Below, piece by piece: positions 9,071-33,900 of a DNA stretch of 64,000 nucleotides. The number at the start of each line of letters is the position of its first letter. The stretch's first letter is position 1. The DNA is from Peristeroidobacter agariperforans (lineage in GTDB: Bacteria; Pseudomonadota; Gammaproteobacteria; Steroidobacterales; Steroidobacteraceae): contig NZ_RYFW01000002.1 in NCBI RefSeq assembly GCF_004138335.1, forward strand, positions 167,501 to 231,500, given 5' to 3'. A program made the translations under genes and the position numbers. The notes below the pieces were generated by a model that saw only the letters and a list, made by a program, of their open reading frames with translations, was not told the origin of the DNA and searched no databases.

Positions 9071-9404
9071 GGCGGTCGGCGGTGGAGCCCTGGCCAGGGC
9101 GGTACCAGACAAACGTCTGGTAAGCAGTCTAGGATCCTTTCCGCGGCACCACAAGCACAAATGACACGCCTCGAAACTGAATGCGCGACGCCAGAACGTG
9201 ATCGAGTTGGCGTACGCAAATGCCACTGAATCCCAACGGACCCGTGCTCGCGAATAAGCCGTTGCGAGTATCCCTTAACCTCTTCTTAACGGCTGGCGAA
9301 CTGAAGTGACAGTCTCCGCTATACTTCCGGCTCCCTACACTTCGCTAATCGCACTGACCAACGACGATGCGACGCGAACCACAACAACTCAGAGCCGCCC
9401 GAGA
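9071..9404. other. intergenic region between lexA and the ECF sigma gene
   Basis: This divergent promoter region is 334 bases long. It contains the 20-bp dyad at 9103-9122, paired CTTAAC repeats near 9276-9290 and a TATACT hexamer at 9320-9325 without a clear -35 partner. A GTG at 9306 is in frame with the sigma factor and could add 33 residues, but they are not sigma-like. No other gene was recognised. Confidence 0.5.
9103..9122. promoter_or_regulatory. perfect inverted repeat, candidate LexA operator
   Basis: The arms TACCAGAC and GTCTGGTA are exact inverted repeats separated by AAAC. The repeat lies 33 bases upstream of the lexA ATG. No E. coli-type CTG-N10-CAG box or GTTC-type box was seen in the same interval. 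An autoregulated lexA needs an operator here, so this dyad is the best candidate. Assignment is inference. Confidence 0.55.
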
Positions 9405-9962
9405 ATGACGGACTCAGTACTCGCTCGAGTCGCACAAGGAGATGCGCGTGCCGTGCACGAGTGCATCGATCAGTTCGGCAGTCTCATCTGGTCCATCGCC
9501 CGACGCTTGACGCGCACGCGCGCCGATGCAGAAGACGCCGTGCAGGAAATCTTCACGGATGTCTGGCGCAGCGCTGGCCGCTTCGACCCCAACCAAGGCT
9601 CGGAGAAAGTATTCGTTGCCACCATCGCGCGGCGACGTTTGATCGATCGCATGCGCCGGGCCGCGCATCAGGCGCGCACCGAATCCACTGACGATATTGA
9701 TTCGCTGGGCTGGGCCGATCCGGGCAACAGCGCCGAAGTGTGCGCCGAGGCGTCGGCGGCTGCCCGCGCAGTGATGCAATTACGACCCGAACAACGGCAG
9801 GTGCTGGAGCTTGGAATCCTGCAAGGATTGAGTCATTCGGAAATTGCCGATGTGCTGCAAATGCCGCTCGGTACAGTAAAAACCATGATGCGGCGAGGAT
9901 TGATTCAGGTGCGTGAGTTGATGGGTATTCAGAACGCTGCCTCCGATGGGGTGCGCTCATGA
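9405..9962 (+). CDS. ECF-family RNA polymerase sigma factor
   Basis: The 185-aa product is a two-domain ECF sigma factor. Region 2 is visible as FGSLIWSIARRLTRTRADAED with the downstream VQEIFTDVWRSAGRFDP. Region 4 is PEQRQVLELGILQGLSHSEIADVLQMPLG, containing the DNA-reading helix. The ATG at 9405 gives the standard length; a GTG at 9306 is less likely. Its stop overlaps the next gene's ATG (ATGA), and that gene is an RskA-like anti-sigma factor. The pair is therefore a typical membrane-signal-controlled switch. The target promoters and the inducing signal are not visible. It is near the EPS locus but there is no direct evidence that it controls it. Confidence 0.93.
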   Translation: MTDSVLARVAQGDARAVHECIDQFGSLIWSIARRLTRTRADAEDAVQEIFTDVWRSAGRFDPNQGSEKVFVATIARRRLIDRMRRAAHQARTESTDDIDSLGWADPGNSAEVCAEASAAARAVMQLRPEQRQVLELGILQGLSHSEIADVLQMPLGTVKTMMRRGLIQVRELMGIQNAASDGVRS

Positions 9963-10870
9963 GCAACTCAGTCATGCAGAACCCGAGGCTGGTGGAGTTG
10001 CTGGTGCAGCGGGCCGTGGACGGCTTGAACTCTTCCGAGCGCGCCGAGCTGAAACAGCTGCTCTCCGAAGAGAAATATGTGGACGCCGGTCGTTTCGAAT
10101 ACACCGCCGCCTCCTTACTGCTCGCGGGCGATGTGGAGAACAACACGCCCGAAGAAATGCCATACAGCTTGCGCGAGCGATTGATGGCGCAGGCGGATAA
10201 CGTCGCCGCTTCGATGCCGGCAGCGCCGTCTCGCCAGAACACTTCGCAGCCGCGAGTCATCAGCATCGCGGGTCGTTCACGTTCGACCACTGCAGCGCCA
10301 GTCGCCAGTGCGCTGCCGGCAGCGAAGGCGCCGGCTGCACGCAAGCCGGCTTCATTCGGTGGCAAGGTCGGTTGGTTTGCCGCTGCCGCGAGCGTACTGA
10401 TCGCTCTCGCTGGCTGGTGGCCGCGCTTGCAGAGCGGCGATCCGATGGTCGAGGCGCCGGTGGCCAGCACGCTGGAACAGCAACGACAGGAGCTGCTCGC
10501 CCAACAAGGCGTGCTGCAGCGAACCTGGCAGACCACGCCGGATCCGGCGGCGAGCGGTGTTACCGGCGATGTGGTGTGGGATCAGCGGACTCAGAATGGA
10601 TATCTTCGTTTCCGCGGCCTGCAAGCCAACAACACGGACGAGATGACTTATCAGCTGTGGATCTTCGACGGCACGCGCGATGAGCGCTATCCGATCGACG
10701 GCGGCATCTTCGATATTCCGCCCGGGCAGAGCGAGGTGATCATTCCCATCACCGCCAAACTGCAGGTTCGCAATCCGGCCGCCTTCGCCGTCACCATCGA
10801 GAAGCCCGGCGGCTCCGTCGTCTCCAGCCGCGACCGCATCGTCGTGCTCGCACCCGTCGCCGCGGGTTGA
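9959..10870 (+). CDS. RskA-like membrane anti-sigma factor
   Basis: The 303-aa product has a cytoplasmic N-terminal part (residues 1-130) rich in Ala and Pro after residue 80. One membrane helix follows at about 134-154 (VGWFAAAASVLIALAGWW). The periplasmic C-terminal domain carries the anti-sigma-K pattern LWIFDGTRDERYPIDGG and ends IVVLAPV. RskA-family proteins hold their partner sigma factor at the membrane until released. Translational coupling to the sigma gene by a 4-base overlap supports partnership. No canonical zinc-binding HxxxCxxC motif is present, which is usual for RskA types. Confidence 0.87.
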   Translation: MSNSVMQNPRLVELLVQRAVDGLNSSERAELKQLLSEEKYVDAGRFEYTAASLLLAGDVENNTPEEMPYSLRERLMAQADNVAASMPAAPSRQNTSQPRVISIAGRSRSTTAAPVASALPAAKAPAARKPASFGGKVGWFAAAASVLIALAGWWPRLQSGDPMVEAPVASTLEQQRQELLAQQGVLQRTWQTTPDPAASGVTGDVVWDQRTQNGYLRFRGLQANNTDEMTYQLWIFDGTRDERYPIDGGIFDIPPGQSEVIIPITAKLQVRNPAAFAVTIEKPGGSVVSSRDRIVVLAPVAAG

Positions 10871-10969: not shown

Positions 10970-12013
10970 TCAACCTGCCAGCGGCACGCTGGCGCCGACG
11001 GCGGGAAGGTGGCGGCCGAGAGGCTGTTCGCTCTCGGCGCGTTCCCGCGCGTAGCTGTTCAACTTGTTGTAAAGGGTCTTGAGGCTGCAGCCGAGCACGG
11101 CGGCGGCGCGGCGCTTGTCGCCTTCGCAATAATCCAATGTGACTTCGATCAGTGAGCGCTCGGCCTCATCCAGACGAGAGCCGAGCGGCACGTGCACGCC
11201 TGCAGGGCGCGCGGCTTCCACCGGCTCCGGCGTGTGCGTCGGCATCGTGACCGACAGATCAACGTCCAGCACCTCGTCGGCGAGAATGAAGCTGCGCTCG
11301 ACCGCGTTCTTCAGCTCACGCACGTTGCCTGCCCAGCGGCGCGAGCCGAGTGCTTCCAGGAACGTGGGTGAAAAGCGTTTGGTCACATCGCTGCCGCGAT
11401 TGAGCGTGGCCAGGAACTGTTGAGCCAGCAACGGCACATCGCCAGGACGCTCGCGCAGCGGCGGGATGTGCAGCGGGAACACTGCGAGTCGATACATCAA
11501 ATCTTCGCGCAGCTGGCGATTGGCGACCGCTTCGGTGACGTTGCGGTTCGTGGCCGCGACGACGCGGATGTCGGTCTTGATCTCCTGCGTGCCGCCGACG
11601 CGATAGAAGCGCCCGGTCTCCAGCACGCGTAGCAGGCGGGTCTGCATGTCCAGCGGCATCTCGGTGACTTCATCGAGGAACAACGTGCCGCCGGTGGCGC
11701 GCTCGAACACGCCAGCGTGCGAGCGAGAGGCGCCGGTGAAGCTGCCCTTCTCGTAACCGAACAATTCGGCCTCGATCAACGAGCCGGGAATGGAGCCGCA
11801 GTTGATCGCCACCAGCGGGCCCTGGGCGCGATTGCTCAAGTTGTGAATGCATTCGGCGACAAGCTCTTTGCCGACGCCGCTTTCACCCATGATCATGACC
11901 GTGGCTTCGGTGGGCGCCACGCGTTTGATCAAGCCGAACACCTGATGCATGGCAGGCGAGCGCCCGAGGAGGTTGCCGAGGCCGTTCTCGTGCAGCGTGA
12001 TCGGTGCGTCCAC
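10970..12013 (-). CDS. sigma-54-dependent transcription activator without receiver domain
   Basis: The product (347 aa from the chosen GTG) is almost only an AAA+ activator domain plus a C-terminal Fis-type helix-turn-helix. Visible motifs are Walker A GESGVGKE (43-50), the sigma-54 contact loop GSFTGA (90-95), Walker B GGTLFLDE (108-115), the arginine-finger region and the HTH near DKRRAAAVLGCSLKTLYNKL. I chose GTG at 12013 because GGGGAGAG lies 8 bases before it; a TTG at 12031 would add six residues. Only about 15 residues precede the AAA+ domain, so no sensor is attached. It is divergent from the AlgD-like gene, whose promoter has a good -24/-12 element. It is the likely master activator of the EPS locus (inference). 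Confidence 0.92.
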   Translation of the reverse strand: MDAPITLHENGLGNLLGRSPAMHQVFGLIKRVAPTEATVMIMGESGVGKELVAECIHNLSNRAQGPLVAINCGSIPGSLIEAELFGYEKGSFTGASRSHAGVFERATGGTLFLDEVTEMPLDMQTRLLRVLETGRFYRVGGTQEIKTDIRVVAATNRNVTEAVANRQLREDLMYRLAVFPLHIPPLRERPGDVPLLAQQFLATLNRGSDVTKRFSPTFLEALGSRRWAGNVRELKNAVERSFILADEVLDVDLSVTMPTHTPEPVEAARPAGVHVPLGSRLDEAERSLIEVTLDYCEGDKRRAAAVLGCSLKTLYNKLNSYARERAESEQPLGRHLPAVGASVPLAG

Positions 12014-12327
12014 TGTGTAATCTCTCCCCAATTAAACTCGTAAAGAGTTGTGATCGCTTAGGTGAGATGCAAATTCTTCAAGCGCTGCCTGAGTTCCTTT
12101 GTAATAAAGTTTTTTCGGCGCGACAAAAGTAGGAAATTCTTGGTGTCGAATTCGTTGACGCAGCATGTGCCGTAAAACGCAGGGATTTCCGTGTCCGGGG
12201 CGTGTTGCGGCGAGTCGTCGGAAATTCTCACTGCGATGCAGGGAACGGCGGCACAGAACTTGCCATTCTCTTCAGGGAACCGGGCGACTTCGCTGAGCGT
12301 CGGTCGGTACTTTCAACACGGAGACGA
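12014..12327. other. divergent control region of the EPS locus
   Basis: This interval is 314 bases long and markedly more AT-rich than its neighbours. It holds the sigma-54 element at 12250-12263. GGAAATTCT occurs twice, near 12131 and 12220, and a related GGGATTTCC lies near 12183. These copies are spaced upstream of the promoter as enhancer sites could be. An A/T-rich stretch with GTAATAAAGTTTTTTC lies at 12101-12116. No gene was recognised. Confidence 0.5.
12250..12263 (+). promoter_or_regulatory. sigma-54 promoter (-24/-12)
   Basis: The sequence CGGCACAGAACTTGCC has GG and GC separated by exactly 10 bases. It matches the consensus TGGCACG-N4-TTGC at the GGCAC and TTGC cores. The predicted start is near 12275, about 50 bases before the ATG of the dehydrogenase gene. 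The divergent neighbour encodes a sigma-54 activator. Confidence 0.8.
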
Positions 12328-13746
12328 ATGATGGCGTTGCAGATCGATAGCGTGAGCGCAGAAGCGCGTGCTCGCCGTGGGTGGCTGCGGGAGAGCGCTG
12401 AGGATGAAGACATTGCACCCGGCTCGCCGCGTCGAATCAGTATTTTCGGCTTGGGTTACGTCGGTGCGGTCTCGCTCGCCTGCCTGGCGCGCGACGGTCA
12501 TGAGATGTTTGGCGTCGACATCGATCCTGGCAAGCTCGAGCTATTACGTCGCGGTCAGGCGCCCATCGTCGAAACCGGGATCCAGGAGCTGACCCGCGCC
12601 GTCATGCGTGGCGGCACAGTGAGCGTGACCGATTCGGTGCGCGATGCAATTCTCGCCACCGACATTTCATTCGTCTGCGTCGGTACGCCGGCGCGTCAGA
12701 ACGGCAATCAGGATCTCGGCGCCATCACACGCATCGCCGAGCAGATCGGCGGAGTGCTGTCGGAGAAATCCACACGCCACGTCATCGTGATCCGGTCGAC
12801 GGTCAAGCCGGGCACACTCGATGAAGTGATCAAGCCCGCCATCGAAGCCGCCTCGGGGCTGCAGGCAGGTCGCGATTTCAGCCTGTGCTTCCAGCCCGAG
12901 TTCCTGCGCGAAGGCACGTCGATCAACGACTATGACAATCCGCCGTTGACGGTCGTCGGTGCGGACGATCCGTACGCCGTCGAAGCGTTGCGCGGCATCT
13001 TCGGCCACTTGCCTTGCGAGTTCATGCACACCAGCGTGCGCACGGCGGAGATGCTGAAGTACGCCTGCAATGCCTTTCACGCGTTGAAGGTGACCTTCGC
13101 CAACGAGATTGGCCGCGTCTCGCAGGCGACCGGTGTCGATCCGCACGAGGTGATGAAGTTGCTGTGCATGGACCGGCAGCTCAACATTTCCTCCGCCTAT
13201 CTGCGGCCGGGCTTTGCCTTTGGCGGCTCGTGCCTGCCGAAGGACCTGAAGGCGCTGCTGTATCTGGCGAAGAGCAACGACGTCGAGCTGCCGATGTTGA
13301 ACAGCTTGCTGCCAAGTAATGCCGCGCACATCGATCACGCGGTGGATCGGGTGCTGGCGAGCGGGCGCCGCTCGGTCGGCATGATCGGGCTGAGCTTCAA
13401 GTCCGGCACCGACGATCTGCGCGAGAGTCCCCTGGTGGTCATGGCCGAACGCTTCATCGGCAAGGGCCTGCCGTTGTGCATTTTCGATCCGGAAGTCAAC
13501 GTCGCGCGGCTGATCGGCGCGAACCGGCGCTTCATCGAAGAGAGCATTCCGCACATCGCCTCGCTGATGACCACGGACCTCGACGCGCTGGTGCGCGACT
13601 CGGATGTGCTAGTCGTGGCGATGAAAACGCCAGAAGTGCTGGCGGCGCTGCGGGCCCACACCCGGCCCGATCAGCTGTTGCTGGATATCGCCGTGCTGCC
13701 CGATCGCGAGAGCTATCAGGCGGCGTATCAGGGCGTGTGCTGGTAG
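12328..13746 (+). CDS. nucleotide-sugar 6-dehydrogenase, AlgD-like
   Basis: The 472-aa product belongs to the UDP-glucose/GDP-mannose dehydrogenase family, which oxidises a sugar nucleotide to the uronic acid with two NAD+. The Rossmann motif is IFGLGYVGAVSLACLARDG. The catalytic cysteine is in GFAFGGSCLPKDLKAL. The C-terminal domain has GLSFKSGTDDLRESPLV, which is closer to GDP-mannose dehydrogenase (AlgD) than to Ugd, but substrate is inferred. A GGAGA lies just before adjacent ATGs at 12328 and 12331, and either could be used. It starts the forward EPS segment under the sigma-54 element and implies a uronic acid in the polymer. Confidence 0.9.
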   Translation: MMALQIDSVSAEARARRGWLRESAEDEDIAPGSPRRISIFGLGYVGAVSLACLARDGHEMFGVDIDPGKLELLRRGQAPIVETGIQELTRAVMRGGTVSVTDSVRDAILATDISFVCVGTPARQNGNQDLGAITRIAEQIGGVLSEKSTRHVIVIRSTVKPGTLDEVIKPAIEAASGLQAGRDFSLCFQPEFLREGTSINDYDNPPLTVVGADDPYAVEALRGIFGHLPCEFMHTSVRTAEMLKYACNAFHALKVTFANEIGRVSQATGVDPHEVMKLLCMDRQLNISSAYLRPGFAFGGSCLPKDLKALLYLAKSNDVELPMLNSLLPSNAAHIDHAVDRVLASGRRSVGMIGLSFKSGTDDLRESPLVVMAERFIGKGLPLCIFDPEVNVARLIGANRRFIEESIPHIASLMTTDLDALVRDSDVLVVAMKTPEVLAALRAHTRPDQLLLDIAVLPDRESYQAAYQGVCW

Positions 13747-13752: not shown

Positions 13753-14988
13753 ATGTCGAATGCGGAAGAACAGACCCGGGTCATGAGCGCCGACGTCGCC
13801 GTTGCCCGTCGCCGCCGTGTGCTGATCATCGTCGAGAACCTGCCGCTGCCGTTCGACCGGCGCGTATGGCAGGAAGCGCGTACGTTGCACGCAAACGGCT
13901 ACCAGGTGTCGATCATCTGCCCCAAGGGCAAGGGCTACGAGAAGAGCTTCGAGGAGCTCGAGGGCATCGCGATTCATCGCCATTCGATGCCGTTCGAGGC
14001 CGACGGTGCGCTCGGTTATGCGCTCGAGTACAGCTGGGCGTTGGCCGCCGAATTCCTGTTGTCGCTGAAGATTTGTTTCGGCCGGGGCTTCGATGTGATC
14101 CATGGCTGCAATCCGCCGGACATGATTTTCCTGATCGGCGGCTTCTACAAGCTGTTCGGCAAGAAGTTCCTGTTCGATCACCACGACATCAATCCGGAGC
14201 TGTACGAAGCGAAGTTTCAGCGCCGCGACGTCTTCTATCGGCTGATGCTGGCGCTGGAGCGCTGGACGTTTCGCACCGCCGACGTGTGCGTGGCCACCAA
14301 CGAGTCGTACAAGAGAATCGCGATCGAGCGTGGCGGCCAGCAGCCGAACAAAGTGTTCGTGGTGCGCAGCGGCCCGGACCTGCGGCGCTTGAAAGTCTTG
14401 CCGCCGCAGCCGGAGCTGAAGCGCGGGCGCAAATATCTGGTTGGTTATGTCGGCGTGATGGGACGCCAGGAAGGCATCGATGGCTTGCTGACCGCGGTTC
14501 AGCACATCGTGCACGGAATGGGGCGCACCGACATTCATTTCGGCCTGGTCGGCGGCGGCACCGAGCTGGACGCGATGCGCAAGCTCGCACAGGAGCTGCG
14601 TGTCGCCGATTACGTGACCTTCACCGGCCGCGTGCCCGATGCGGAACTGCTCGCCATGCTCAACACGGCGGACGTGTGCGTGAATCCCGATGTCGCCAAC
14701 GAGATGAACGACAAGTCCACCATGAACAAGATCATGGAGTACATGGCGCTGGGTAAACCCATCGTTCAGTACGACCTGACCGAGGGGCGCGTGTCGGCGC
14801 AGCAGGCGTCGCTGTACGCCCGGCGCAACGATCCCATCGACATGGCGCAACAGATCGTGACGTTGCTGGATGACGAGCCCCGACGGAAGCAGATGGGAGA
14901 GTGGGGCCGCGAGCGGGTGAAGAATTCGCTGGCTTGGGAGCACGAGGTGCCGCGGCTGCTGGCGGCCTATGAAACGCTGTTTACTTGA
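13753..14988 (+). CDS. GT4-family glycosyltransferase
   Basis: The 411-aa product has a GT-B fold. The N-terminal domain includes LPFDRRVWQEARTLHANGY, a signature of EPS-cluster GT4 enzymes, and HHDINPELYEAKF. The C-terminal domain carries GYVGVMGRQEGIDGLL and the donor-binding region NEMNDKSTMNKIMEYMALG. It would add a sugar from a nucleotide donor to the lipid-linked repeat at the inner membrane face. It begins 6 bases after the dehydrogenase and its stop overlaps the next gene (TTGA), so the three genes form one operon. Donor and acceptor cannot be read from the sequence. Confidence 0.88.
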   Translation: MSNAEEQTRVMSADVAVARRRRVLIIVENLPLPFDRRVWQEARTLHANGYQVSIICPKGKGYEKSFEELEGIAIHRHSMPFEADGALGYALEYSWALAAEFLLSLKICFGRGFDVIHGCNPPDMIFLIGGFYKLFGKKFLFDHHDINPELYEAKFQRRDVFYRLMLALERWTFRTADVCVATNESYKRIAIERGGQQPNKVFVVRSGPDLRRLKVLPPQPELKRGRKYLVGYVGVMGRQEGIDGLLTAVQHIVHGMGRTDIHFGLVGGGTELDAMRKLAQELRVADYVTFTGRVPDAELLAMLNTADVCVNPDVANEMNDKSTMNKIMEYMALGKPIVQYDLTEGRVSAQQASLYARRNDPIDMAQQIVTLLDDEPRRKQMGEWGRERVKNSLAWEHEVPRLLAAYETLFT

Positions 14989-16400
14989 GGGCGAGGACAA
15001 TTCGATACGTGGTGCTAGCCGCTGGCTTTGATGGAACGCTGGCTCGCGATGGGCGTTGCGACGAGCGTTGTATCGAGGTATTGCGTGAGTTGTCGGCGAC
15101 CGGCCGCAAATTGATTCTGGTGACCGGGCGCGAATTGCGACGGCTGCTGGAGATATTCCCCGAAGCACGTCTGTTCGATTACATCGTCGCCGAGAACGGC
15201 GCGGTGCTGCATCGGACGGCGACCCGACAATCCGAAATTCTCGGCCAGGCGCCGCCGGAGATCCTGCTGCAGGAGCTGCGGCGCCGGCAGGTCACGCCGC
15301 TGCGGGTGGGCAGCTCGATCATCAGCACGGCTGCGAAATATTTCGAGGTGGCGCGCGAGGCGTTGCGCAAGCTCAAGCTGCACATGGATTACGAGCTGGT
15401 GACCAACGACGACACGTTGCTCATCCTGCCACCGGGCATCGACAAAGCATCGGGCATGAACGAGGCGCTGCGTGAACTCGGTGTCTCGCGTCATAACCTG
15501 GTTGCCATCGGCAACGCCGAGAACGATCTGCCGTTGCTGGCATCTGCCGAGCACGCCGTGGTCGTGAACAATGCCGCCGAGTCCATCAAGGAAGCGGCGG
15601 ATCGGGTCACGCAAGGCGAGTACTGCGAGGGCTTCCTCGAGCTGGCGCGCGATCTGATCGCGACCGATCTCGCAGCCTCGGTCCCCAGGCGCCGTGTGGT
15701 GCTGGGCAAAGGCGAGGATCAACGCGAGATCCTGTTGTCGCCGTGCCAGGACTCGGTGCTGGTCAGCGGGCCGGATGAAGCGGCCCGGAGCTTGATCTGC
15801 AATCGTCTGCTCGATCAGTTGATGCAGCAGGATTATCAGTGCTGTGTCATCGGCGCCGACCGGAACGTTCCGTTCGCGGCGTCGCGCTCCAGCTTCGCGG
15901 ACATGAGCAGTTGGGGCGATGCCCACGATGCGCCAAGGCTGACCGACGTGCTGACGGCGCTCGAACCGCCCACTCACAGCATCGAGATCAATCTGGCCGC
16001 CTTGCCGCCAGAGACGCGGCCGGTGTTCGTCGACGCGTTGTTGTTACAGCTGCAGGCGCTGCACGATCGCGCCGGCCGTCCGCATTGCATTCTGATTCAT
16101 CATGCGCACCACTTCCTGACCGGCAGCCAGGCGGCGAACGCCATCCGGCGCCTGTCTGAAGTGACCATGATTTATTCGACGGCCGAAGCCAGTCAGTTGC
16201 CCTCGGCGGTGTTGAACGATGTGAAGCTCACCATCGCCACCGGACAGCCGGGCGTCGACGCGCCGGACGTTGCCGGCGCGTCGACCGAGGCTCAAGCCGT
16301 CATTGCTGGCGGCTCGGTGTGCCGGATCTCTCTGTTGCGGCCGTCGCCCGGCTCGACATCGGTGACTTCGACCGAGGAAGTCACCGTGCCGGGATTCTGA
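14985..16400 (+). CDS. HAD-like/P-loop-like two-domain protein with replaced catalytic residues
   Basis: The 471-aa product has an N-terminal HAD-IIB phosphatase-like domain (about 1-225) and a C-terminal region resembling a P-loop ATPase (about 240-400). The HAD motif I reads AAGFDGTLA, so the nucleophile Asp of DxDGT is Gly14. Motif II (LVTGRE, T47) and motif III (K154) remain. Motif IV is GNAENDLPLL with Asn177 where Asp is usual. In the second domain the Walker A position reads VSGPDEAARSL with no GKS/T, and Walker B reads ILIHHAHHF where an acidic residue would stand. Start is a TTG overlapping the upstream stop. It is likely a binding or regulatory pseudoenzyme. Its 3' end overlaps the converging GT2 gene by 109 bases. 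Confidence 0.8.
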   Translation: MRARTIRYVVLAAGFDGTLARDGRCDERCIEVLRELSATGRKLILVTGRELRRLLEIFPEARLFDYIVAENGAVLHRTATRQSEILGQAPPEILLQELRRRQVTPLRVGSSIISTAAKYFEVAREALRKLKLHMDYELVTNDDTLLILPPGIDKASGMNEALRELGVSRHNLVAIGNAENDLPLLASAEHAVVVNNAAESIKEAADRVTQGEYCEGFLELARDLIATDLAASVPRRRVVLGKGEDQREILLSPCQDSVLVSGPDEAARSLICNRLLDQLMQQDYQCCVIGADRNVPFAASRSSFADMSSWGDAHDAPRLTDVLTALEPPTHSIEINLAALPPETRPVFVDALLLQLQALHDRAGRPHCILIHHAHHFLTGSQAANAIRRLSEVTMIYSTAEASQLPSAVLNDVKLTIATGQPGVDAPDVAGASTEAQAVIAGGSVCRISLLRPSPGSTSVTSTEEVTVPGF

Positions 16401-17362
16401 TCGGGATACTGAATCACTTCCTGCACCCGATAGTCCTTCATGCCGCGCGCATGAGTGAAGATGATCAGCTCGCCCAACAGGCCGAGCGCGAACACTTGCA
16501 TGCCCAGCACCACCAGCAGCGCGCCTAGCAGCAGCGCCGGCCGATCGGCGAGCTTCTCGTCGAAGAGCAGTCGCTGCACGCTGAGGAACGCGATGATGGC
16601 CGCGCCGATGCCGAAGGTCGCAGCGCCCAACATGCCGAAGAACCGCAACGGCCGCTTGGTGAAGCGCACCAGGAAGAAGATGCTGAACAGGTCGAGCACA
16701 TGGTGTGCGTATTGCTTCGGCCGATACGCCCGCTGCAGGCGATCGAGCGGCGACTGGCGCATGGCGACTTCGCTGACGCGGAAGCCCAGGCGCGTGGCGA
16801 GGATGGCCATGAAGCGATGCTGGTCGCCGTACAGGTCCATCTCTTCGAACACCTGGCGGCGCATCGCACGGGCGCCGCAGCCGAGGTCCTGCAGTCGGGC
16901 GCCGGTGACGAAATTCACCAGCCCGTGGAAGGCGCTGCGACGCATGCGATCGAACATGTTGCCGTAGCGGGGCGAGCGATAGCCGATCGCCATGTCCGAG
17001 GAGCTCAGCGCCGCGACCAGCTTCGGAATGTCCTGCGCCTCGATCTGGTGATAGGCCGGCAAGGTGACGATCACGCTGCCCTGGGCGCGCTCGAAGCCAG
17101 CCATCAACGCAGCAGCCTCGCCGAAGCTGCGTGTCAGACTGATGACGGTGATGTCTTCGCCATCGTTCAACAGCTCCTCCAGCGCGCGGCTGGCATCGGT
17201 GCGATCGCCGTCGAGGACGAAGATGAACTCGAAGGGCAGGCCGACGGCTGCGATGCCGGCCTTGTATTGCGCATACAGAGGCCGCAGCTCCGAGCGTCGC
17301 CCGCACACGGGCACGATGACGGAGATCGACGGCAGTGAAGGTGTCAGAGGCTGAGTGCTCAT
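16292..17362 (-). CDS. GT2-family membrane glycosyltransferase, DxD motif absent
   Basis: The 356-aa product looks like a dolichol-phosphate-mannose-synthase-type GT2. It has a soluble N-terminal GT-A domain and two C-terminal membrane helices (near FFGMLGAATFGIGAAIIAFL and LLLGALLVVLGMQVFALGLL). The first nucleotide-binding carboxylates survive as FVLDGDRTDAS. The metal-binding DxD that should follow IVT is replaced by LPAYHQ (residues 101-106). The neighbouring GT2 keeps MDGDLQ at the same place. It overlaps that neighbour by 4 bases (ATGA) and is translated after it. It may be a specialised clade with altered chemistry or a non-catalytic partner. Confidence 0.85.
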   Translation of the reverse strand: MSTQPLTPSLPSISVIVPVCGRRSELRPLYAQYKAGIAAVGLPFEFIFVLDGDRTDASRALEELLNDGEDITVISLTRSFGEAAALMAGFERAQGSVIVTLPAYHQIEAQDIPKLVAALSSSDMAIGYRSPRYGNMFDRMRRSAFHGLVNFVTGARLQDLGCGARAMRRQVFEEMDLYGDQHRFMAILATRLGFRVSEVAMRQSPLDRLQRAYRPKQYAHHVLDLFSIFFLVRFTKRPLRFFGMLGAATFGIGAAIIAFLSVQRLLFDEKLADRPALLLGALLVVLGMQVFALGLLGELIIFTHARGMKDYRVQEVIQYPDQNPGTVTSSVEVTDVEPGDGRNREIRHTEPPAMTA

Positions 17363-18411
17363 GAGGTTGTCGTCACTGGTTGCGAGGGCGGCGCCTTGGG
17401 ACTATCGCCACGACGGCGCCGTATGGTTTGTGTCAGTCGGAAGAACTCGTTGTCACGAATGTCGCCGCGCGAATAGATCAGCTCAGCTAACGCGCCACTG
17501 CACAAAAGGATCGTGCCCGACGCCAAAAAAATAATTCCGGTGCCTGCCAGCGGCAGCGATAGTTGCGCCCGATCGGTGATCAGCGTCACGAACGTGTGCG
17601 CGAGCATGCCGAACGCGCCCAGGAACAGCGGCACCGCCAGCAGCGCGAACCAACGCAACGGCCGCGACGCGAAGGTAGTCACGGTCTTGATGACCATCAG
17701 ATCCAGCAAGACCTTGTAGATGCGCGACAGACCGTACTTGGACTGGCCGTAGCGACGCGCGTGATGGCGCACTCGAATCTGTGCGACGCGCGGCCCGGCG
17801 ATGGAGGCCATGGCTGGAATGAAACGGTGCATTTCCGAGTAGAGCGGAATGCTCTTGATCAGCTCGGCGCGGAATGCCTTGAGCGAACAGCCGTTGTCCC
17901 GAATGGGCACACCGGTGACCTTGCCGATCAGAACATTGGCGATGCGCGAGGGAATCTTGCGCGTCACCAGCTTGTCCTGACGGTTGTGACGCCACCCGAC
18001 CACGATGTCGTAGCCGGCTTCGATCTGCTCCAGCAAATGTTTGATGTCGGCCGGATCGTTCTGCAGGTCGCCGTCCATGGTGACCAGAATTTCGCCGCGC
18101 GCGTGCTCGATACCCGCGGCCATGGCCGGCGTCTGGCCATAATTGCGGCGGAATTTCACCAGTCGCAGACGCGAATCGAAACGGGCGATCTGGCGCGCGA
18201 TCTCGGCCGTGTCGTCGCGACTGCCGTCGTCGACGAACACCATTTCGAACGTGCAGCCGATATCGCCCAGCGCCTGCACTATGGCGGCGTAGAGCGGGCG
18301 AATGCTTTCCTGCTCGTTGTACAACGGCACGATGACTGAAAGCCGTGGCCGCGACGTCTCCGGCGCTTCCTGGACGGGCCCTGATTCAGTTGTAACTTTT
18401 GCACCAGTCAT
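17359..18411 (-). CDS. GT2-family membrane glycosyltransferase (DPM-synthase type)
   Basis: The 350-aa product carries the GT-A motifs VSVIVPLYNEQESI-like start (LSVIVPLYNEQES), FVDDGSRDDT and TMDGDLQNDP with the intact DxD. The region RRYGQSKYGLSRI precedes two C-terminal membrane helices (LRWFALLAVPLFLGAFGML and LAGTGIIFLASGTILLC). Such enzymes move a sugar from a nucleotide donor to polyprenyl phosphate at the inner membrane. It is the first gene of a two-gene minus-strand unit, divergent from the export operon across a 248-base control region. Confidence 0.9.
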   Translation of the reverse strand: MTGAKVTTESGPVQEAPETSRPRLSVIVPLYNEQESIRPLYAAIVQALGDIGCTFEMVFVDDGSRDDTAEIARQIARFDSRLRLVKFRRNYGQTPAMAAGIEHARGEILVTMDGDLQNDPADIKHLLEQIEAGYDIVVGWRHNRQDKLVTRKIPSRIANVLIGKVTGVPIRDNGCSLKAFRAELIKSIPLYSEMHRFIPAMASIAGPRVAQIRVRHHARRYGQSKYGLSRIYKVLLDLMVIKTVTTFASRPLRWFALLAVPLFLGAFGMLAHTFVTLITDRAQLSLPLAGTGIIFLASGTILLCSGALAELIYSRGDIRDNEFFRLTQTIRRRRGDSPKAPPSQPVTTTS

Positions 18412-18575
18412 CCTGTATTTCCCGACGTTCTTACAACCTTTCCCTGCGTCGGCGGTATTCGCCTTTTGCAGGAACTCTTCTCACACGCACGTCATTGCTT
18501 GGTCATAGTGACAACGCGGCGGCGAATCCTGGTGTCCCGTCGCGGTGCCGCTGACAAGCGACACGCTGTTTCGTT

Positions 18576-18589
18576 GGCACATGACGTGC
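18576..18589 (+). promoter_or_regulatory. sigma-54 promoter (-24/-12) of the export operon
   Basis: TTGGCACATGACGTGCA has a full TGGCAC core and GTGC, with GG and GC 10 bases apart. The predicted start is near 18601, giving a leader of about 60 bases before the export gene at 18660. The surrounding divergent region 18412-18659 shows no other clear promoter. Confidence 0.78.
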
Positions 18590-18659
18590 AAAGGACAGGC
18601 CAACGTAACAGGCAAATAACCAACGAACGTACGGTCAAGGTTCGACAGGAGCAGAATCG

Positions 18660-19217
18660 ATGGCGAGAATGCGAGGAATCTGGGCGCTGCTGGCGATGTG
18701 TGTACTGGGCCTGCAGGCCGCGCACGCGCAGCAGGCGTCATATATCGTCAAGCCGGGTGACACCCTGGAAATTTCGGTGTGGAAGGAGCCGGACCTGCAG
18801 CGTCAGGTGCTGGTGCGCCCGGATGGCGCTTTTTCATTTCCACTGGTAGGTGAGATCGATGCGCGCGGCAAGACCGTCGGCGATCTCAACAAGCTGGTGG
18901 CGGATCGCCTCGCCAAATACATCTCCGGCGCAGTGGTGACCGTGTCCGTGCAGGAGATCAAAGGCAACAAGATCTTCGTGCTCGGGCAGGTGAACAAGCC
19001 GGGCGAGTTCATCGTCAATCCGAGCGTCAACATCATGCAGGCGTTGAGCATGGCCGGCGGCATGACGCCATTCGCGGCCACCAACGACATCATCGTGCTG
19101 CGTGGCCAGGGCGAGAAACAAACCGCGATGGCATTTCGCTACCCCGAGGTAGTGCGCGGCAAGCGTCTGGAAACCAACATCGAGCTCATCGCAGGAGACA
19201 TCGTTGTTGTGCCGTAA
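18660..19217 (+). CDS. polysaccharide export protein (Wza/OPX type)
   Basis: The 185-aa product has a signal peptide (to about AHAQQ at residue 25). It then has the OPX export domain (YIVKPGDTLEISVWKEPDLQRQV, VRPDGAFSFPLVGEI) and an SLBB repeat (VLGQVNKPGEF to ALSMAGGM). Such proteins form or gate the outer-membrane passage for capsular or EPS chains. No lipobox cysteine follows the signal region, and the protein is short, so it lacks Wza's outer-membrane helix. The partner barrel gene downstream overlaps it by 14 bases. An AGGAG lies 8 bases before the ATG. It is the first gene of an operon running to 23014. Confidence 0.92.
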   Translation: MARMRGIWALLAMCVLGLQAAHAQQASYIVKPGDTLEISVWKEPDLQRQVLVRPDGAFSFPLVGEIDARGKTVGDLNKLVADRLAKYISGAVVTVSVQEIKGNKIFVLGQVNKPGEFIVNPSVNIMQALSMAGGMTPFAATNDIIVLRGQGEKQTAMAFRYPEVVRGKRLETNIELIAGDIVVVP

Positions 19218-20388
19218 TCGTTCGATCGGCCGCTGCTGGGCCAGCCTGCCGTTGGCGCTCGCTGCTTGCAGCGCCGGCGCGGCCAACTGGGAAGTCGCGC
19301 CTCGCGTGCAGGCGGGCTATCGTTACAACGACAACTATCACCTCGAACAGCCAGGCGGCGAAGTGGAAGTGTCGGGCGGCGAAGCGGAGGTGGGTGTGAC
19401 CTTCAGGACGGTCGATCCGCGCACCAACTTCGAGATCACGCCGCGCATCAACTCGACGTACTTCCCGGACGAACGAGACGAGGACTCGACCGACTACTAC
19501 CTCAATGCCGGCTTCTCCGACATCACACCGCGTCGGCGCATCAACGTGCCGTTTCTGTATTCGCAGGAAGACGTGGTGGACAGCGAACTGCCGGACACCA
19601 GCGACGGCGGCGGCTTGGGCGAGCCGGACCAGGGCGACTCGGGCCGCTTCCTGGCCCGCAATCGCCGCGACTTCTTCCGGATCGCGCCTTCGTTCGGCTA
19701 CGACCTCTCGCAACGCTATCGCCTGGAACTGGATGCGCACTACCTGCAGGCCGACTTCGACAATCAGCTGCCTGGGGCGCAACAGGATTTCAGCGAATTC
19801 GGCGCAGGCGCAGGCTTCGGCTTCCTGACATCGCAGCGCTCGACTTTGTTCGTACGTGCCTTGGGCTTCCAGTACGACACCACGACCACGACCGACGCCT
19901 TTGGCGGCGAATTTGAATGGAATACACAGTACTCGGAGAACTCGCGGGCCTACATCCGGCTCGGCGCCCAGCAGACCAAGCCGGAGGACGGCGCGAGCGA
20001 CACCAACATCATCGCCGGCGCCGGCGGCCAGTGGTCGACCCAGCGTAACCGGCTGTTCCTGGACCTGACCCGCAGCGTCGGGCCGGTTGCGGCGGGAACC
20101 GTGGTGGAGCGTTATCAGTTGCGTCTGAGGGTCGATCATGACGTATCGCAACGCTTTGCCTTGCGCGCCGGCGCCCGCCTGTCCCAGGACGAAGAGACTC
20201 AGGATGGCACTTATCCCACGCGCAAGTACGCCATTGGCGAGCTGGGTTTCGAGTGGCGCTGGCTGCGGCAGTGGTCGCTCATCGGCAGCTACAACTATCG
20301 GTGGCAGGAGTACGAAGACGAGCCTTCCGATGCCGACGCCAGCGCCTTCCTGATTGGAATCGTGTACGAACCGAAACGCGCCCAATAA
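19204..20388 (+). CDS. outer-membrane beta-barrel protein of the EPS system
   Basis: The 394-aa product starts with a signal sequence (LPLALAACSAGAANWEV) and consists mostly of alternating short strands ending in aromatic residues, typical of an outer-membrane barrel (VQAGYRYNDNYHLEQ; FFRIAPSFGYDLSQRYRLE). Barrels of this kind sit beside OPX proteins in exosortase-type EPS loci and probably form the exit pore. An LAAC in the signal sequence could be a lipobox, but a barrel is more consistent. The TTG start overlaps the upstream gene, implying coupling. The sequence gives no enzymatic motif. Confidence 0.8.
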   Translation: MLCRNRSIGRCWASLPLALAACSAGAANWEVAPRVQAGYRYNDNYHLEQPGGEVEVSGGEAEVGVTFRTVDPRTNFEITPRINSTYFPDERDEDSTDYYLNAGFSDITPRRRINVPFLYSQEDVVDSELPDTSDGGGLGEPDQGDSGRFLARNRRDFFRIAPSFGYDLSQRYRLELDAHYLQADFDNQLPGAQQDFSEFGAGAGFGFLTSQRSTLFVRALGFQYDTTTTTDAFGGEFEWNTQYSENSRAYIRLGAQQTKPEDGASDTNIIAGAGGQWSTQRNRLFLDLTRSVGPVAAGTVVERYQLRLRVDHDVSQRFALRAGARLSQDEETQDGTYPTRKYAIGELGFEWRWLRQWSLIGSYNYRWQEYEDEPSDADASAFLIGIVYEPKRAQ

Positions 20389-20419
20389 GCCACGGCCACC
20401 TATTAGCCCAAAGCAGCGT

Positions 20420-22129
20420 ATGTCAGCCACCCCGAGTCAAATGCAAACGCCTCCGCCCCCTTATCCCGGCTATGAGCAGGAGAGTGCCGGTTTCAGCGAA
20501 TACCTCGGCATTCTGCGCAGACGGCGCAAGCTGCTGCTGGCGGTGGGGCTGCCCATCGTCGCCGTCGGTGCGACGCTCGCACTAGCCTTGCCCGACGTGT
20601 ATCGCTCCGAGGGCCAGATCGAGATCGAGGGCGCGCAGGCCGTCAAACAAAATCCCAACGCACTCGCGCAGGATCCGGAGGAATCGCCGTACGCCGATCA
20701 GTACGTGCGCAGCTTGAGCACGGTGGTGTTGAGCGATCGCAATCTCGCCAAGCTGCTGGCCGAGCATCAGCTCTACGACCACCAGGCCGACGATCCGGCA
20801 GGCGCGCTCAAAGATCTGCGTAGCGACATCAAAGTCGACATCGTGACCGTGCCGATTCTCGATCCGAACACCGGTCGCGAGCGCGACGTGGTGACGGCCT
20901 TCACTGTCGGCTACGACAACAAACAACCGCAGCGTGCACAGGAAGGCGCGGAGTGGCTGGTCAATGCGTTCCTCGCGGAGAATCGCAACGATCGTCAGCG
21001 CCAGGCGGGCGGCAGAGCGAAGTTCTTTGCAGGCGAAGCGGAGCGCATGCGCACGCATGTCGCACAGCTGGAAGGCAAGCTCGCGGCGTTCAAACAAAAG
21101 AACGCCGGCAAGTTGCCCGAGCTGAATGAAATGAACCTCAATGTGATGGATCGCACCGAGAACGACATCCAGAACGTCGAGTCGCAGATGCAGGCCCTGC
21201 GTCGTGAACGAGTGTACCTCGTGTCGCAACTCGCGCAGGCCCGTTCGGTGAGTCCGGAAGCGGGCAATCTGCGCGCGCTCGAGGATCAATATGCGCGCAT
21301 GAGCGTCCAATACGATCAGAGCCATCCCGATCTGATCATGCTGCGTCGTCAGATCGATCAGTTGAAAGCGGGCGGCTCGGGCGCCGGTCTGTCGCTGAAG
21401 GGGCAGCTGCAAACACAACGTTCCATCCTCGCCGAAGCTCGTCAGCGCTACAGCGAGAGTCATCCGGATGTCCAGCGCATCCAGCGCAATATCGAGGCAC
21501 TGGAAGCGCGCATCGCTTCAGGGGAGACCGCCGATGTCGGCACGGCGGTCGACTCGCCAATGGCCATGCAGCTGCAAACTCAGTTGAATGCTACGGACAC
21601 GCAGCTGGCGGCGTTGCAGGCCCGCGCGATGGAGTTGCGCACCAAGCTGACCGGCCTGGAAGGACGCATCGTCGCGGCGCCGGAAGTCGAGCGCGAATAT
21701 CAGGCGGTGACCCGCGATCTCGCGAGCGCACGCGCCAAGTACGACGAGCTGCTGAAGCGCCAGATGGATGCCGAAGTGAGCGAAGCCGCCATTGCCGGCG
21801 GCACCGCCGACAAGTTTCAGGTGAAGAGCTCGCCGAAGATTCCGGAAGAGCCGGCCAAGCCGGCACGCCTCGCCATCATGATCATTGCGCTGGTGCTGGG
21901 CGCGATTGCCTCGCTCACTGCTGTGATCCTGGCGCAGTTGATGGATGCGACGGTGCGTGGCGCGCGCGATATTCAAGACATTCTGGGCGTCACGCCGCTG
22001 ACCTCGGTGCCGGTCATCAAACATTCCGGCGCCAAGAAGCCCAAGCGAGGCGCGCCGGCGTATGCTGCTACAGCTGCCGCGGCCGTCGCGATTCTCGCGT
22101 TAGCGGTCGTTGTTAGATTCGTTGCCTGA
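20420..22129 (+). CDS. chain-length determinant protein (Wzz/GumC type)
   Basis: The 569-aa product has a Pro-rich N-terminus, a first membrane helix near residues 40-60 (LLLAVGLPIVAVGATLALAL) and a long periplasmic part with coiled coil (about 180-440, for example HPDVQRIQRNIEALEARIA). A second helix follows near LAIMIIALVLGAIASLTAVIL. A third hydrophobic stretch ends the chain, where Wzc would have its kinase. The kinase is instead the separate next gene. It regulates polymer length and couples polymerisation to export. The start at 20420 gives the usual N-terminus; a longer reading into the barrel gene is unlikely. Confidence 0.9.
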   Translation: MSATPSQMQTPPPPYPGYEQESAGFSEYLGILRRRRKLLLAVGLPIVAVGATLALALPDVYRSEGQIEIEGAQAVKQNPNALAQDPEESPYADQYVRSLSTVVLSDRNLAKLLAEHQLYDHQADDPAGALKDLRSDIKVDIVTVPILDPNTGRERDVVTAFTVGYDNKQPQRAQEGAEWLVNAFLAENRNDRQRQAGGRAKFFAGEAERMRTHVAQLEGKLAAFKQKNAGKLPELNEMNLNVMDRTENDIQNVESQMQALRRERVYLVSQLAQARSVSPEAGNLRALEDQYARMSVQYDQSHPDLIMLRRQIDQLKAGGSGAGLSLKGQLQTQRSILAEARQRYSESHPDVQRIQRNIEALEARIASGETADVGTAVDSPMAMQLQTQLNATDTQLAALQARAMELRTKLTGLEGRIVAAPEVEREYQAVTRDLASARAKYDELLKRQMDAEVSEAAIAGGTADKFQVKSSPKIPEEPAKPARLAIMIIALVLGAIASLTAVILAQLMDATVRGARDIQDILGVTPLTSVPVIKHSGAKKPKRGAPAYAATAAAAVAILALAVVVRFVA

Positions 22130-22168
22130 CCCGAGCAGGGTCCATCTGAAAGTTACGAGAGCACGCAA

Positions 22169-23014
22169 ATGAGCATTATCGAAGAGGCAGTGCGCAAGAC
22201 CGCGGAACGCTATCAACGCTCTGCGCCGCCGCCCGAGCAGGGGGCCGCTCGTCCCCGGCTGCGGCGCGTGCCGCCTCCTGCCACGGAGACGGCGAATGTA
22301 CGGCGCTTTCAGCCGGTCACGCTGGATCGCGCCCTGCTGGACGACAACAACATCATTTCCGGGATGAGCGATCCGGGCGCGCTGCGTGCCTACAAGATTC
22401 TGCGCACCCGGTTGTTACGCAGGCTCGAAGCCAATCAGTGGCGTTCGTTCGCCGTGACCGGCGCGACTCCCGGTGAAGGCAAGACATTGACCTCGATCAA
22501 TCTGGCCATGGCGCTGGCGCAGGACTCGAACACCTGGGTGTTCCTGGTCGATCTGGATCTGCAACGTCCCAAAGTCGCCAGCTACCTGGGACTCAACAAC
22601 AGCCTGGGCGAGCGCGGCCTGACCGATTTTCTGCTCGGCGATGCGACGTTCGAGCAGATCGTCTACTCGCCCACCGGCATGGATCGTCTCGCCGTCGTGC
22701 CGAATTTCCAGACGGTCGCGAACGCGTCGGAGCTGCTCACCTCGCCGCGCATGGACGAGCTGGTGCAGGGGCTCGAGGCGGAGATGCCACGGCGGATCGT
22801 GATATTCGACATGCCGCCGGTGCTGGCGTCCGACGACGTGCTGGCATTCTCGCCGCAGGTCGATGGCATGTTGATGGTGGTCGGCGAAGGCTACACCAGT
22901 CGCGACGCTCTCAAGAGCGCCAAGGCGCTGCTGCAGGAAATGAATTTGCTGGGCGTGGTGTTGAATCGATCCGAGTCGCAGGACCAGGGGGCGTATTACT
23001 CATACGCCCGCTGA
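22169..23014 (+). CDS. BY-kinase-like tyrosine autokinase
   Basis: The 281-aa product has the bacterial tyrosine kinase P-loop motifs: Walker A GATPGEGKT (98-106), Walker A' VDLDLQRP (127-134) and Walker B VIFDMPP (211-217). The C-terminus GAYYSYAR offers three tyrosines (276, 277, 279) for autophosphorylation. It lies 39 bases after the Wzz-like gene and probably acts with its C-terminal helix, as in split CpsC/CpsD systems. Cycles of phosphorylation control polymer assembly. Its last 15 bases overlap the 3' end of the converging acetyltransferase gene. Confidence 0.9.
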   Translation: MSIIEEAVRKTAERYQRSAPPPEQGAARPRLRRVPPPATETANVRRFQPVTLDRALLDDNNIISGMSDPGALRAYKILRTRLLRRLEANQWRSFAVTGATPGEGKTLTSINLAMALAQDSNTWVFLVDLDLQRPKVASYLGLNNSLGERGLTDFLLGDATFEQIVYSPTGMDRLAVVPNFQTVANASELLTSPRMDELVQGLEAEMPRRIVIFDMPPVLASDDVLAFSPQVDGMLMVVGEGYTSRDALKSAKALLQEMNLLGVVLNRSESQDQGAYYSYAR

Positions 23015-26605: not shown

Positions 26606-27793
26606 TTAGGAAGACGGCGACGTGAGGCCCTTCGGCGTTCCGGCGCGACGTTCGATGGCAGCCTCGAAGATGGACTCATACCGGGCAGCGCAGGTATCGA
26701 TGAAATAGTTCTCGACCAGTTGCCTGTTGTGGCGGCCCTGGCGCTCACGCGCTTCATGATCCCGGTGCAGCTCGATGAGCGCGCGTACGAACGCTTCCTG
26801 ATCGTTGAGCTTTACCACGTGACCGGTCTCGCCGGTCACCAGGAAATCTGTCTGCCCGCCGCGGTCGTAACAGAGCACGGGCAATCCGAAAGCCATTGCC
26901 TCCAGGAACACCAGGCCGAAGCCCTCGTGCTGACTTGCCGTCACGAACGCATCGGCGACCGACAGCGCGGCATATTTCTCCGCATCCGACACTTGCCCGA
27001 GCATGTGCACTCGATTGCGCACGCCCAGTTCGGTCGCGCGCTGTTCGACAGCCGGCGCATCCGGGCCGTCGCCGACGATGACGAGGTGCGCATTGGCAAT
27101 ATCGCTGGCGGCGAAATTATCGATCAGCTGTACCGTCGCTTTGCGCGCCACGAGCCGACCGATGGTGATCATTACAAAGGCGTCGGGCGGCAGGCCGAGG
27201 TCTTGGCGTGAGGCGGCGCTCACCGAGGGCGGCCGATCGATCCCGAGCGGAATCAGCTCGACCGGCCGGCGTACGCCATAGAGCTCGGTCACGTGACGCA
27301 CGGTGTCGCGCGATTGACCGACCACATCGTCAGCGGCGCGCAGCATCCAACGCACGGCAGCTCGTAGCGGCGCGTGCAGGTGTGGCGAACTGCCCTTGCT
27401 GGGATCGAACAAGTCGCCACCGTGCACGGACAAAACATTGGGCACGTCGTGCCAGCGCGCCAGGGCATGGCCGAGCGGACCGGTCGGAACGACGAAGTGG
27501 GTATTGATCACGTCGAAGTCATTCCTGTTGAAGCGCAGGCCGCGGAGAAATCCCGTCGGCAGATAAGCAGCCATGGACGGGAAATTCGCCACTGCCAGCT
27601 CGCGACGAAAGAACACGGGAACTCGCAACACGCGTACGCCGCCGTCGCGATCGTCGGAGAGTAGTCCTCCAGCGCGCGAAGTGAGTACTGTCACTTCGTG
27701 ACGACGGGCGAGCTGCCGCGCGAGCGCGGCCATGACCACTCCGCCGCCGCCGCCCAGCGGCGGATATTCGTAATTGCAAAAAAGGATGCGCAT
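26606..27793 (-). CDS. GT4-family glycosyltransferase
   Basis: The 395-aa product begins with a typical acceptor-domain motif, CNYEYPPLGGGGGVV. It has the donor-binding region of GT4 enzymes: SQHEGFGLVFLEAMAFGLPVL (EX7E pattern). The segment TIGRLVARKATVQLI lies at the domain junction. It is first in the minus-strand operon with asnB. A GG-N10-GC element on this strand (27822-27809) would give a leader of only four bases and so is doubtful. Substrates are unknown. Confidence 0.9.
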   Translation of the reverse strand: MRILFCNYEYPPLGGGGGVVMAALARQLARRHEVTVLTSRAGGLLSDDRDGGVRVLRVPVFFRRELAVANFPSMAAYLPTGFLRGLRFNRNDFDVINTHFVVPTGPLGHALARWHDVPNVLSVHGGDLFDPSKGSSPHLHAPLRAAVRWMLRAADDVVGQSRDTVRHVTELYGVRRPVELIPLGIDRPPSVSAASRQDLGLPPDAFVMITIGRLVARKATVQLIDNFAASDIANAHLVIVGDGPDAPAVEQRATELGVRNRVHMLGQVSDAEKYAALSVADAFVTASQHEGFGLVFLEAMAFGLPVLCYDRGGQTDFLVTGETGHVVKLNDQEAFVRALIELHRDHEARERQGRHNRQLVENYFIDTCAARYESIFEAAIERRAGTPKGLTSPSS

Positions 27794-27926
27794 GGTTCGA
27801 ACAGAGGAGCAAGTTCCATGCCGCTGTCGCAGCGTGCAATTCCGTCAATTCGCGCGGAACTAATCGCGTGGGCGCCGTATTTAGCCGAATGACCTCACGG
27901 TCAGAATTTTCTGGGGATCTCGGATC

Positions 27927-33554: not shown

Positions 33555-33900
33555 TCGCCGTCTACTCGAGGTGTTCAAGCCCAACGCTTCCAATGCACTT
33601 TCAGTGCCCGGCCCGCAGGGAATTTTTGGGCAGACCGCGGCGCCCGTTGCGGATGTGGCGTAAGGCCCGCTTGCGAGGGCGGCTACTGTCGGCGATCCGC
33701 CGCAGGGAATCGGCCTACGGTAGCCCAAGACAACTGGGCCGGGCTTCAGGGGTTTGCCGATGTAATGGTTGCAACGGGCCTTGTAACTTTTCTCCCGAGT
33801 TGCAAAGCGGCTCGTCCTTTTCATGTGCAAGAAATGCTTGGTGGCAGGCGGGGTTGACCCGGGCACGGCCGCTGAAACTCTTAATGGAGTAACGACGTTA
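33555..33900. other. intergenic region with a possible structured leader
   Basis: This divergent region is 346 bases long and carries the promoters of the glpD-like operon and the lyase gene. Bases 33785-33870 can fold: CAAG/CTTG with loop AAATG at 33829-33841, and GGT/ACC pairs around GCAGGCGGGGT. The elements GCAAAGC (33804) and GGCGGGGTTGACC (33849) look superficially like parts of a class I cyclic-di-GMP riboswitch. The 5' half does not match convincingly. No further gene was seen. Confidence 0.3.

Follow-up and report, generated by a model that had tools for sequence, protein, structure and literature searches.

The window analysed here, a 64,000-nt stretch of the 7.65-Mb Peristeroidobacter agariperforans genome (G000:C10:167501-231500), carries an exopolysaccharide (EPS) locus at whose head two genes diverge: the minus-strand gene for a sigma-54 activator, P0001 (10970-12013), and the plus-strand gene for an AlgD-like GDP-mannose/UDP-glucose dehydrogenase (12328-13746). 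Between them lies a -24/-12 site (CGGCACAGAACTTGCC, 12249-12264, plus strand; hereafter site 1), predicted from its sequence and conservation to be the sigma-54 promoter of the algD-like gene, the first gene after it, and the comparisons below support reading it as a sigma-54 promoter conserved in evolution, opposite the gene for a sigma-54 activator. P0001 is a receiver-less NtrC-type enhancer-binding protein: it joins an AAA+ sigma-54 interaction domain (PF00158, 232 bits; Walker A motif GESGVGK and a GSFTGA loop at residue 96, with serine in the second position as in most kin compared) to a Fis-type helix-turn-helix (HTH; PF02954, 34.8 bits), and Pfam detects no receiver or sensor domain ahead of the AAA+ match, which begins at residue 22. 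An N-terminal domain of this kind is usual, albeit not obligatory, in NtrC-type enhancer-binding proteins. The likely start codon is the GTG at 12013, in a reading frame open to a TTG at 12031; a preliminary description of the DNA had recognized the divergent orientation of the gene and placed its boundary one base off, at 12014. The AlgD-like label given there is fair, because the closest solved relative of the dehydrogenase is the GDP-mannose 6-dehydrogenase 1mfz (463 bits), followed by a UDP-glucose dehydrogenase at 225 bits. The genome has a single rpoN gene, and its nearest named relative is Steroidobacter gossypii (L062/G061), which has the same locus and whose activator is 93% identical to P0001 (the scan may omit very near genomes).

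The geometry of site 1, with GG at 12250-12251 and, ten bases on, GC at 12262-12263, is that of a -24/-12 promoter, as first described, and would place the transcription start near 12275, leaving a leader of about 53 nt. The ATG at 12328 (or an in-frame one at 12331) lies 78 to 81 bases past the first G, in agreement with the 78 bases proposed earlier. Comparison of five loci yielded a longer core, GGCAYRGAACTTGC, which occurs exactly twice in the 7.65-Mb genome, at 12250 and, on the minus strand, at 27822-27809, both within the EPS locus. Across the genus, nine of 14 genomes contain this exact core, with 13 matches versus three for the reversed pattern; of these 13, nine flank the activator gene on its divergent side and the other four precede the glycosyltransferase gene equivalent to 26606-27793. 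The same nine genomes encode an activator ortholog at 81-100% identity, and the other five have no match above 55%. In G068 the gene downstream of the site 1 equivalent is a glycosyltransferase, not the algD-like gene, and in G063 the contig ends just past the site, with the downstream gene outside it. When the nine intergenic regions are aligned, two islands stand out as best kept, and the site 1 16-mer is one of them, at 1.88 bits per column against a mean of 0.77 (sd 0.43) over all 16-column windows; conservation extends upstream through GGCAY and ends after TTGCC, and the remaining intergenic sequence has diverged. A simple scan of 11900-12400 found no sigma-70 promoter and flagged 12247-12264 as a weak terminator-like stem (1 versus 0.7 in shuffles).

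To cover the EPS locus as a whole, a -24/-12 consensus (16 points) was scored at all window positions, independently of gene boundaries, with conservation defined as a qualifying score no more than 40 bp from the corresponding position in each of three relatives (G060, G061 and G062) and with 300 column-permuted motifs as controls. At a score of at least 14, nine sites are conserved, compared with a permuted mean of 0.53 and maximum of 5, and all nine fall within 18.5-41.8 kb, inside the EPS locus. Lowering the threshold to 13.2 raises the number to fourteen, including site 1 and a single site outside the locus (56699); the permuted motifs then average 2.98 with a maximum of 21, and 2 of 300 reach fourteen. 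Six of the nine stricter sites precede genes. Two of these lie close together: TGGCACATGACGTGCA (18575-18590, plus) before the export gene 18660-19217, which opens a plus-strand unit for an XrtA-type Wza-like export protein, an outer-membrane protein, a chain-length determinant and a tyrosine autokinase (18660-23014), and the sigma-54-like TGGCCTGTCCTTTGCA (18587-18602, minus) before two minus-strand GT2 glycosyltransferase genes (16292-18411). The third is the second exact core copy, GGCATGGAACTTGC (27808-27823, minus), located 15 nt before the ATG of the glycosyltransferase gene 26606-27793, which is followed by an XrtA-type amidotransferase gene. This spacing recurs in five genomes, the fifth being G060, where the site has one mismatch; the predicted start would lie about 5 nt before the ATG and leave the transcript almost leaderless. 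The remaining three are TGGCGCGATGCTTGCA (31794-31809, minus) before an epimerase gene, whose true start we place near 31746, where the family match begins; TGGTACGTATCTTGCT (35403-35418, plus) before the WcaJ-type initiating transferase gene 35481-37013; and TGGTATGCAACTTGCT (41785-41800, plus) before the Wzy-like polymerase gene 41920-43227. Of the other three of the nine, those at 23750 and 33322 fall in coding sequence, and a sigma-54-like one (30833-30848, minus) lies inside the epimerase coding region, upstream of the kinase gene 28697-30715. A weaker site, GGGCACTGAAAGTGCA (33594-33609, minus; 13/16), precedes a glycerol-3-phosphate dehydrogenase-like gene. A gene-by-gene control over 25 upstream regions found scores of at least 13.2 in all four genomes for 7 of 25 regions (permuted mean 0.125, 0 of 1000 reaching 7), and 23 of 25 versus 21 for permuted motifs at a low, poorly chosen threshold; its gene list was compiled after the candidate sites had been seen, so that we rely on the position-free scan.

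Alignments upstream of the sigma-54 sites contain repeated TGTAA/TTACA half-sites, combined here as TGYAA-N3-TTRCA. Three exact copies fall in the EPS locus, where about 0.12 would be expected in 38 kb by proportion, and all three are kept exactly in three relatives: the candidate enhancers TGTAACTTTTGCA (18391-18403), 184 nt before the export-gene site at 18575, TGTAATGGTTGCA (33761-33773), 164 nt before the site at 33609, which scores only 13, and TGCAATAATTACA (41709-41721), 76 nt before the Wzy-gene site at 41785. A degenerate candidate with two mismatches, GGTAACTTCTACA (35282-35294), lies upstream of WcaJ and has identical letters in the four genomes compared. Two of the conserved strong sites are therefore preceded by an exact element and a third by a degenerate form, in addition to the weaker site at 33609; in G003 a one-mismatch element stands 133 bp before the export-gene site. 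Among the genus loci examined, exact elements appear in 12 rows, at 11 distinct places because L062 and L238 display a shared one, and in every row a sigma-54 site of at least 13 follows at 40-260 bp; of seven exact elements in 41 distant loci, none precedes such a site. Counting pairs of an element with up to one mismatch and a site of at least 14, and using 59 control palindromes, we obtained 10 pairs in 19 genus loci (control mean 0.42, maximum 9), 14 in 34 loci of Burkholderiales and allies (mean 1.32, maximum 13) and 1 in the 41 distant loci (mean 1.53). TGYAA-N3-TTRCA is likely to act as an enhancer of the EPS sigma-54 sites.

The best-kept stretch of the nine-genome alignment is the second island, which lies beside the activator gene at 12068-12115, 175-243 bp from the GG of site 1, and reads TGCAAATTCTTC(A/C)A, followed after about eleven bases by GTTCC...TTGTAA in most genomes. 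Here it comprises TGCAAATTCTTCA (12068-12080), a degenerate TGYAA-N3-TTRCA with two mismatches, and GTTCCTTTGTAATAAAGTTTTTT (12093-12115), which includes the half-site TGTAA at 12100-12104; the exact sequence TGCAAATTCTTCAA occurs once in the genome. We regard 12068-12080 as a candidate enhancer acting on site 1 that may also serve in autoregulation. The enhancers put forward earlier were GGAAATTCT-like elements, which do occur at 12132 and 12220. The closest genomes retain them in part at best, G003, G067, G068 and G063 lack them, and we set them aside as unconserved beyond near kin, TGYAA-N3-TTRCA being the better candidate.

Taken together, these data lead us to propose, with a probability of roughly 0.72, that 12249-12264 is the RpoN promoter of the algD-like gene and that the divergent activator drives a multi-promoter RpoN regulon for EPS production. 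P0001 would bind TGYAA-N3-TTRCA elements situated some 65-245 bp ahead of RpoN promoters and open these promoters with its GSFTGA-containing AAA+ ring, acting at the algD-like unit, the export and chain-length unit, the glycerol-3-phosphate dehydrogenase-like gene, WcaJ and Wzy. The block at 12068-12115 would be the activator's own site, also placed to regulate the activator's gene, and control without a sensor domain could be exerted through protein amount, a partner protein or a ligand. Sites, conservation, protein domains and co-occurrence are observed; from them we infer activator binding to the element and the RpoN requirement of transcription. The preliminary description had the activator switch on the whole locus from the promoter opposite it. 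The conserved promoter facing the activator, the single rpoN gene and the retention of the arrangement, with a different divergent gene, in two other genera of the family agree with that idea, but one promoter cannot suffice, because the genes run in both directions. Conserved sites stand before several separate units, and one regulator acting at several promoters probably switches on much of the locus. RpoN promoters are silent without their activator, and an EPS locus wired in this way would therefore be under a tight on/off switch. The proposal names a specific regulator, a set of promoters and an enhancer sequence that are predicted to govern polymer production in the soil-dwelling Steroidobacter group, as well as a candidate binding motif for an activator clade with relatives in Burkholderiales.

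Several observations weigh against this proposal. The plain core GGCAC-N5-TTGC has 84 matches genome-wide versus 82 for the reversed pattern, and a bare-motif search of the window returned 76 matches versus 72.9 expected, an uninformative result in which site 1, four mismatches from the search pattern, is not included. Site 1 had been called a strong promoter, a description that neither the unenriched core nor its score of 13.5/16 on the -24/-12 consensus, under all nine sites of the stricter scan, bears out. Taken alone it is no better than chance, so that its conservation among relatives is the evidence; these relatives share descent, which makes the conserved rows dependent on one another. 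That activator and site occur together is in part trivial, as the two are neighbours, and the conservation of the 16-mer amid diverged sequence is the stronger point. The sites at 23750, 30848 and 33322 lie within coding sequence, where conservation may be coding, and those at 23750 and 33322 may carry no meaning. The element motif was picked by eye from these same alignments and shows little enrichment genome-wide (24 places versus 16 for the reversed pattern); outside the EPS locus it has 21 copies, 18 of which overlap an open frame of at least 150 amino acids and five of which have a sigma-54 score of at least 13 within 40-260 bp, in one case (L295) above 14. The block upstream of site 1 carries TGCAAATTCTTCA or its A-to-C variant, at two to three mismatches from the element, and no clear copy stands in the 260 bp ahead of the sites at 27823, 18602 and 31809. 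In the pair test, the window has two pairs, equalled by 1 of 59 controls, and the seven family loci one, equalled by 5 of 59; one control palindrome reaches 13 against the 14 of the Burkholderiales set, and for the element alone, in the window only, 2 of 59 control palindromes match it, in what is a weak test. Finally, a long paralog of P0001 with a nearly identical recognition helix could be activator or competitor.

That paralog is the basis of the serious rival explanation, in which the sigma-54 promoters are real and the long protein is their working activator, or shares the sites with P0001, leaving P0001 as an auxiliary or antagonist. Encoded on the same contig past the window end (L142 1688-3091, approximately window 65190-66590), it has 467 residues, is 56% identical to P0001 and carries about 150 N-terminal residues without a Pfam match and no receiver in Pfam; the recognition helices of the two proteins compare as SVKTLYNKLNEY and SLKTLYNKLNSY. 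In a tree of 101 AAA+ to HTH regions, P0001 belongs to a 14-row clade (100/97) of short activators of this family and two related metagenome records, nested in an 89-row clade (100/100) that also has longer forms. Besides the identity and the similar helix, the rival is favoured by the loci L067-L100, 31 of 34 of which have two opposite-direction activator genes, in most cases a short and a long one no more than about 2.5 kb apart; in L073, the one locus scanned, the long activator carries a true receiver domain, with a GT20 (trehalose-phosphate-synthase-type) gene nearby. The short forms of P0001 and L073, those scanned for domains, both lack a receiver. We consider this rival improbable, and the distribution of the paralog speaks against it. 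The paralog scores 326-352 bits to P0001 in G000, G060, G061 and G063, but in G062, which keeps the sites and elements, the next P0001 match after the activator reaches only 227 bits, which points to P0001 rather than the paralog. Moreover, the exact site 1 core accompanies the short protein in nine of nine genomes, and G064 (a genome only 75% complete) has the long type without the short protein or the site.

Two further explanations concern site 1 itself. In Pseudomonas, algD has an AlgU-type -35 element, GAACTT, and the conserved core could be such an element, read by an extracytoplasmic function (ECF) sigma factor such as that encoded at 9306-9962. GAACTT is invariant in the nine genomes, the downstream gene is AlgD-like, and the ECF gene, with that of its RskA-type anti-sigma factor (pair at 9306-10870), adjoins the activator gene. 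Yet the nine sequences have no conserved -10 element 16-19 nt after GAACTT, conservation reaches beyond it, upstream through GGCAY and up to TTGCC, most other conserved sites lack GAACTT and still fit -24/-12, and the pair is not beside the activator in L063 or G003; we consider this explanation very improbable. That site 1 matches the motif by chance, in the space between two divergent genes, as a plain core no commoner than its reversed control might suggest, is hardly credible because the site is kept in nine of nine genomes amid diverged surroundings, and a -24/-12 site also recurs before a different gene in two other genera.

These two genera of the family, represented by G011 and G020, have near-perfect -24/-12 sites (TGGCACAGGCCTTGCA and TGGCACGCGCGTTGCA) divergent from the activator, and the gene behind them is small and, by frame reading alone, lipoprotein-like; in G020 a one-mismatch element precedes the perfect site. 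Because these sister genera keep the site before a different gene, the activator-promoter pair may predate its link to EPS. TGTAA-N3-TTACA palindromes lie just upstream of the activator gene in L066 and G027. The stricter -24/-12 pattern is absent from the 650 bases read in L066, G027, G010, G048 and G031, the last three of which give weak matches to a looser pattern. Further afield, loose patterns detected no common palindrome in the upstream regions of the Burkholderiales loci; in L067, TGTAATCCTTACA stands 118 bp before a perfect site, TGGCACGCCAGTTGCT (region 12401-12622, about 1.5 kb from an activator relative), and the gene behind that site begins with residues that look PrkA-like. A broader reading would see in these observations an unnamed clade of short receiver-less activators, extending from Betaproteobacteria to Steroidobacter, with its own enhancer code, TGYAA-N3-TTRCA, and exchanged targets: a lipoprotein-like gene in the sister genera, a PrkA-like gene in a betaproteobacterium and the entire EPS locus in Steroidobacter, where the regulon would include at least five RpoN promoters. 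We hold the chances of this reading to be about even.

In its receiver-less, divergent layout P0001 resembles PspF, a receiver-less enhancer-binding protein encoded divergently from its sigma-54 target operon; unlike PspF, its target would be the EPS locus rather than psp. P0001 scores 279.8 bits against the PspF model (cut-off 443.55), and the solved domain of PspF is among the structural relatives found for it. Control of EPS by RpoN and an enhancer-binding protein is already known, and it is the enhancer code that is newly proposed here. BerB exemplifies such control (PMC5552954, PMC9684580): in Burkholderia cenocepacia it governs the Bep exopolysaccharide through berA, the gene that it activates and whose product in turn switches on bep (PMC5552954). 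Like P0001, BerB is there described as an activator without a recognised sensor domain, encoded beside an EPS cluster and working with RpoN; in contrast to the berA relay, the sigma-54 sites here directly precede EPS genes, and the layouts differ, with GAFTGA at residues 208-213 of BerB, as described, versus GSFTGA at 96 in P0001 (PMC5552954). Vibrio vulnificus DctD2, as described, is likewise an enhancer-binding protein activating EPS gene clusters, and is phosphorylated (PMC9040800). In the PrsK-PrsR/PEP-CTERM system, a 17-nt activator motif ending in TTTACA lies about 63 nt before the -24/-12 site (PMC1569441, PMC9850573). PrsR shares with P0001 an EPS-linked NtrC-type character and, in the accounts cited, many promoters under one regulator, but contains a receiver domain, and the PrsR box stands before PEP-CTERM genes, whereas the sites here precede EPS genes. 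A guessed PEP-CTERM motif, TGTAA-N7-TTACA, has no match in the window (at most one mismatch) or in the genome, which, for a guess, is uninformative on the true motif. We considered whether P0001 is itself PrsR (TIGR02915) and rejected the assignment: the score is 301.7 bits against a curated cut-off of 502.6, the match covers profile positions 137-442 only, and there is no receiver. The only exosortase (EpsH) gene found lies elsewhere, at G000:C10:1559010-1559768, where it adjoins a different sigma-54 activator gene, about 1.35 Mb from the XrtA-like EPS locus. The exosortase-adjoining activator in the tree (L309 row) sits on a long branch outside the 89-row clade of P0001 and, judged from its place only, may be PrsR. 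More generally, sigma-54 is presented as a central controller of the bacterial exterior in one survey (PMC3162934). In the literature searched, we found no paper joining Steroidobacter with sigma-54, and for Steroidobacter with exopolysaccharide, the matches listed are by title community or plant studies.

The plus-strand algD-like gene is followed co-directionally by genes for a GT4 glycosyltransferase (13753-14988) and a HAD-family protein (14985-16400), together spanning 13753-16400. Genes for a sulfotransferase and a heparinase II/III-like protein also occur among the EPS genes (40578-41663 and 48099-50132), a hint that the polymer may be sulfated or uronate-rich. Elsewhere in the window, at 55164-58105, a hybrid histidine kinase gene adjoins one for a YfiR-like protein, both on the minus strand.

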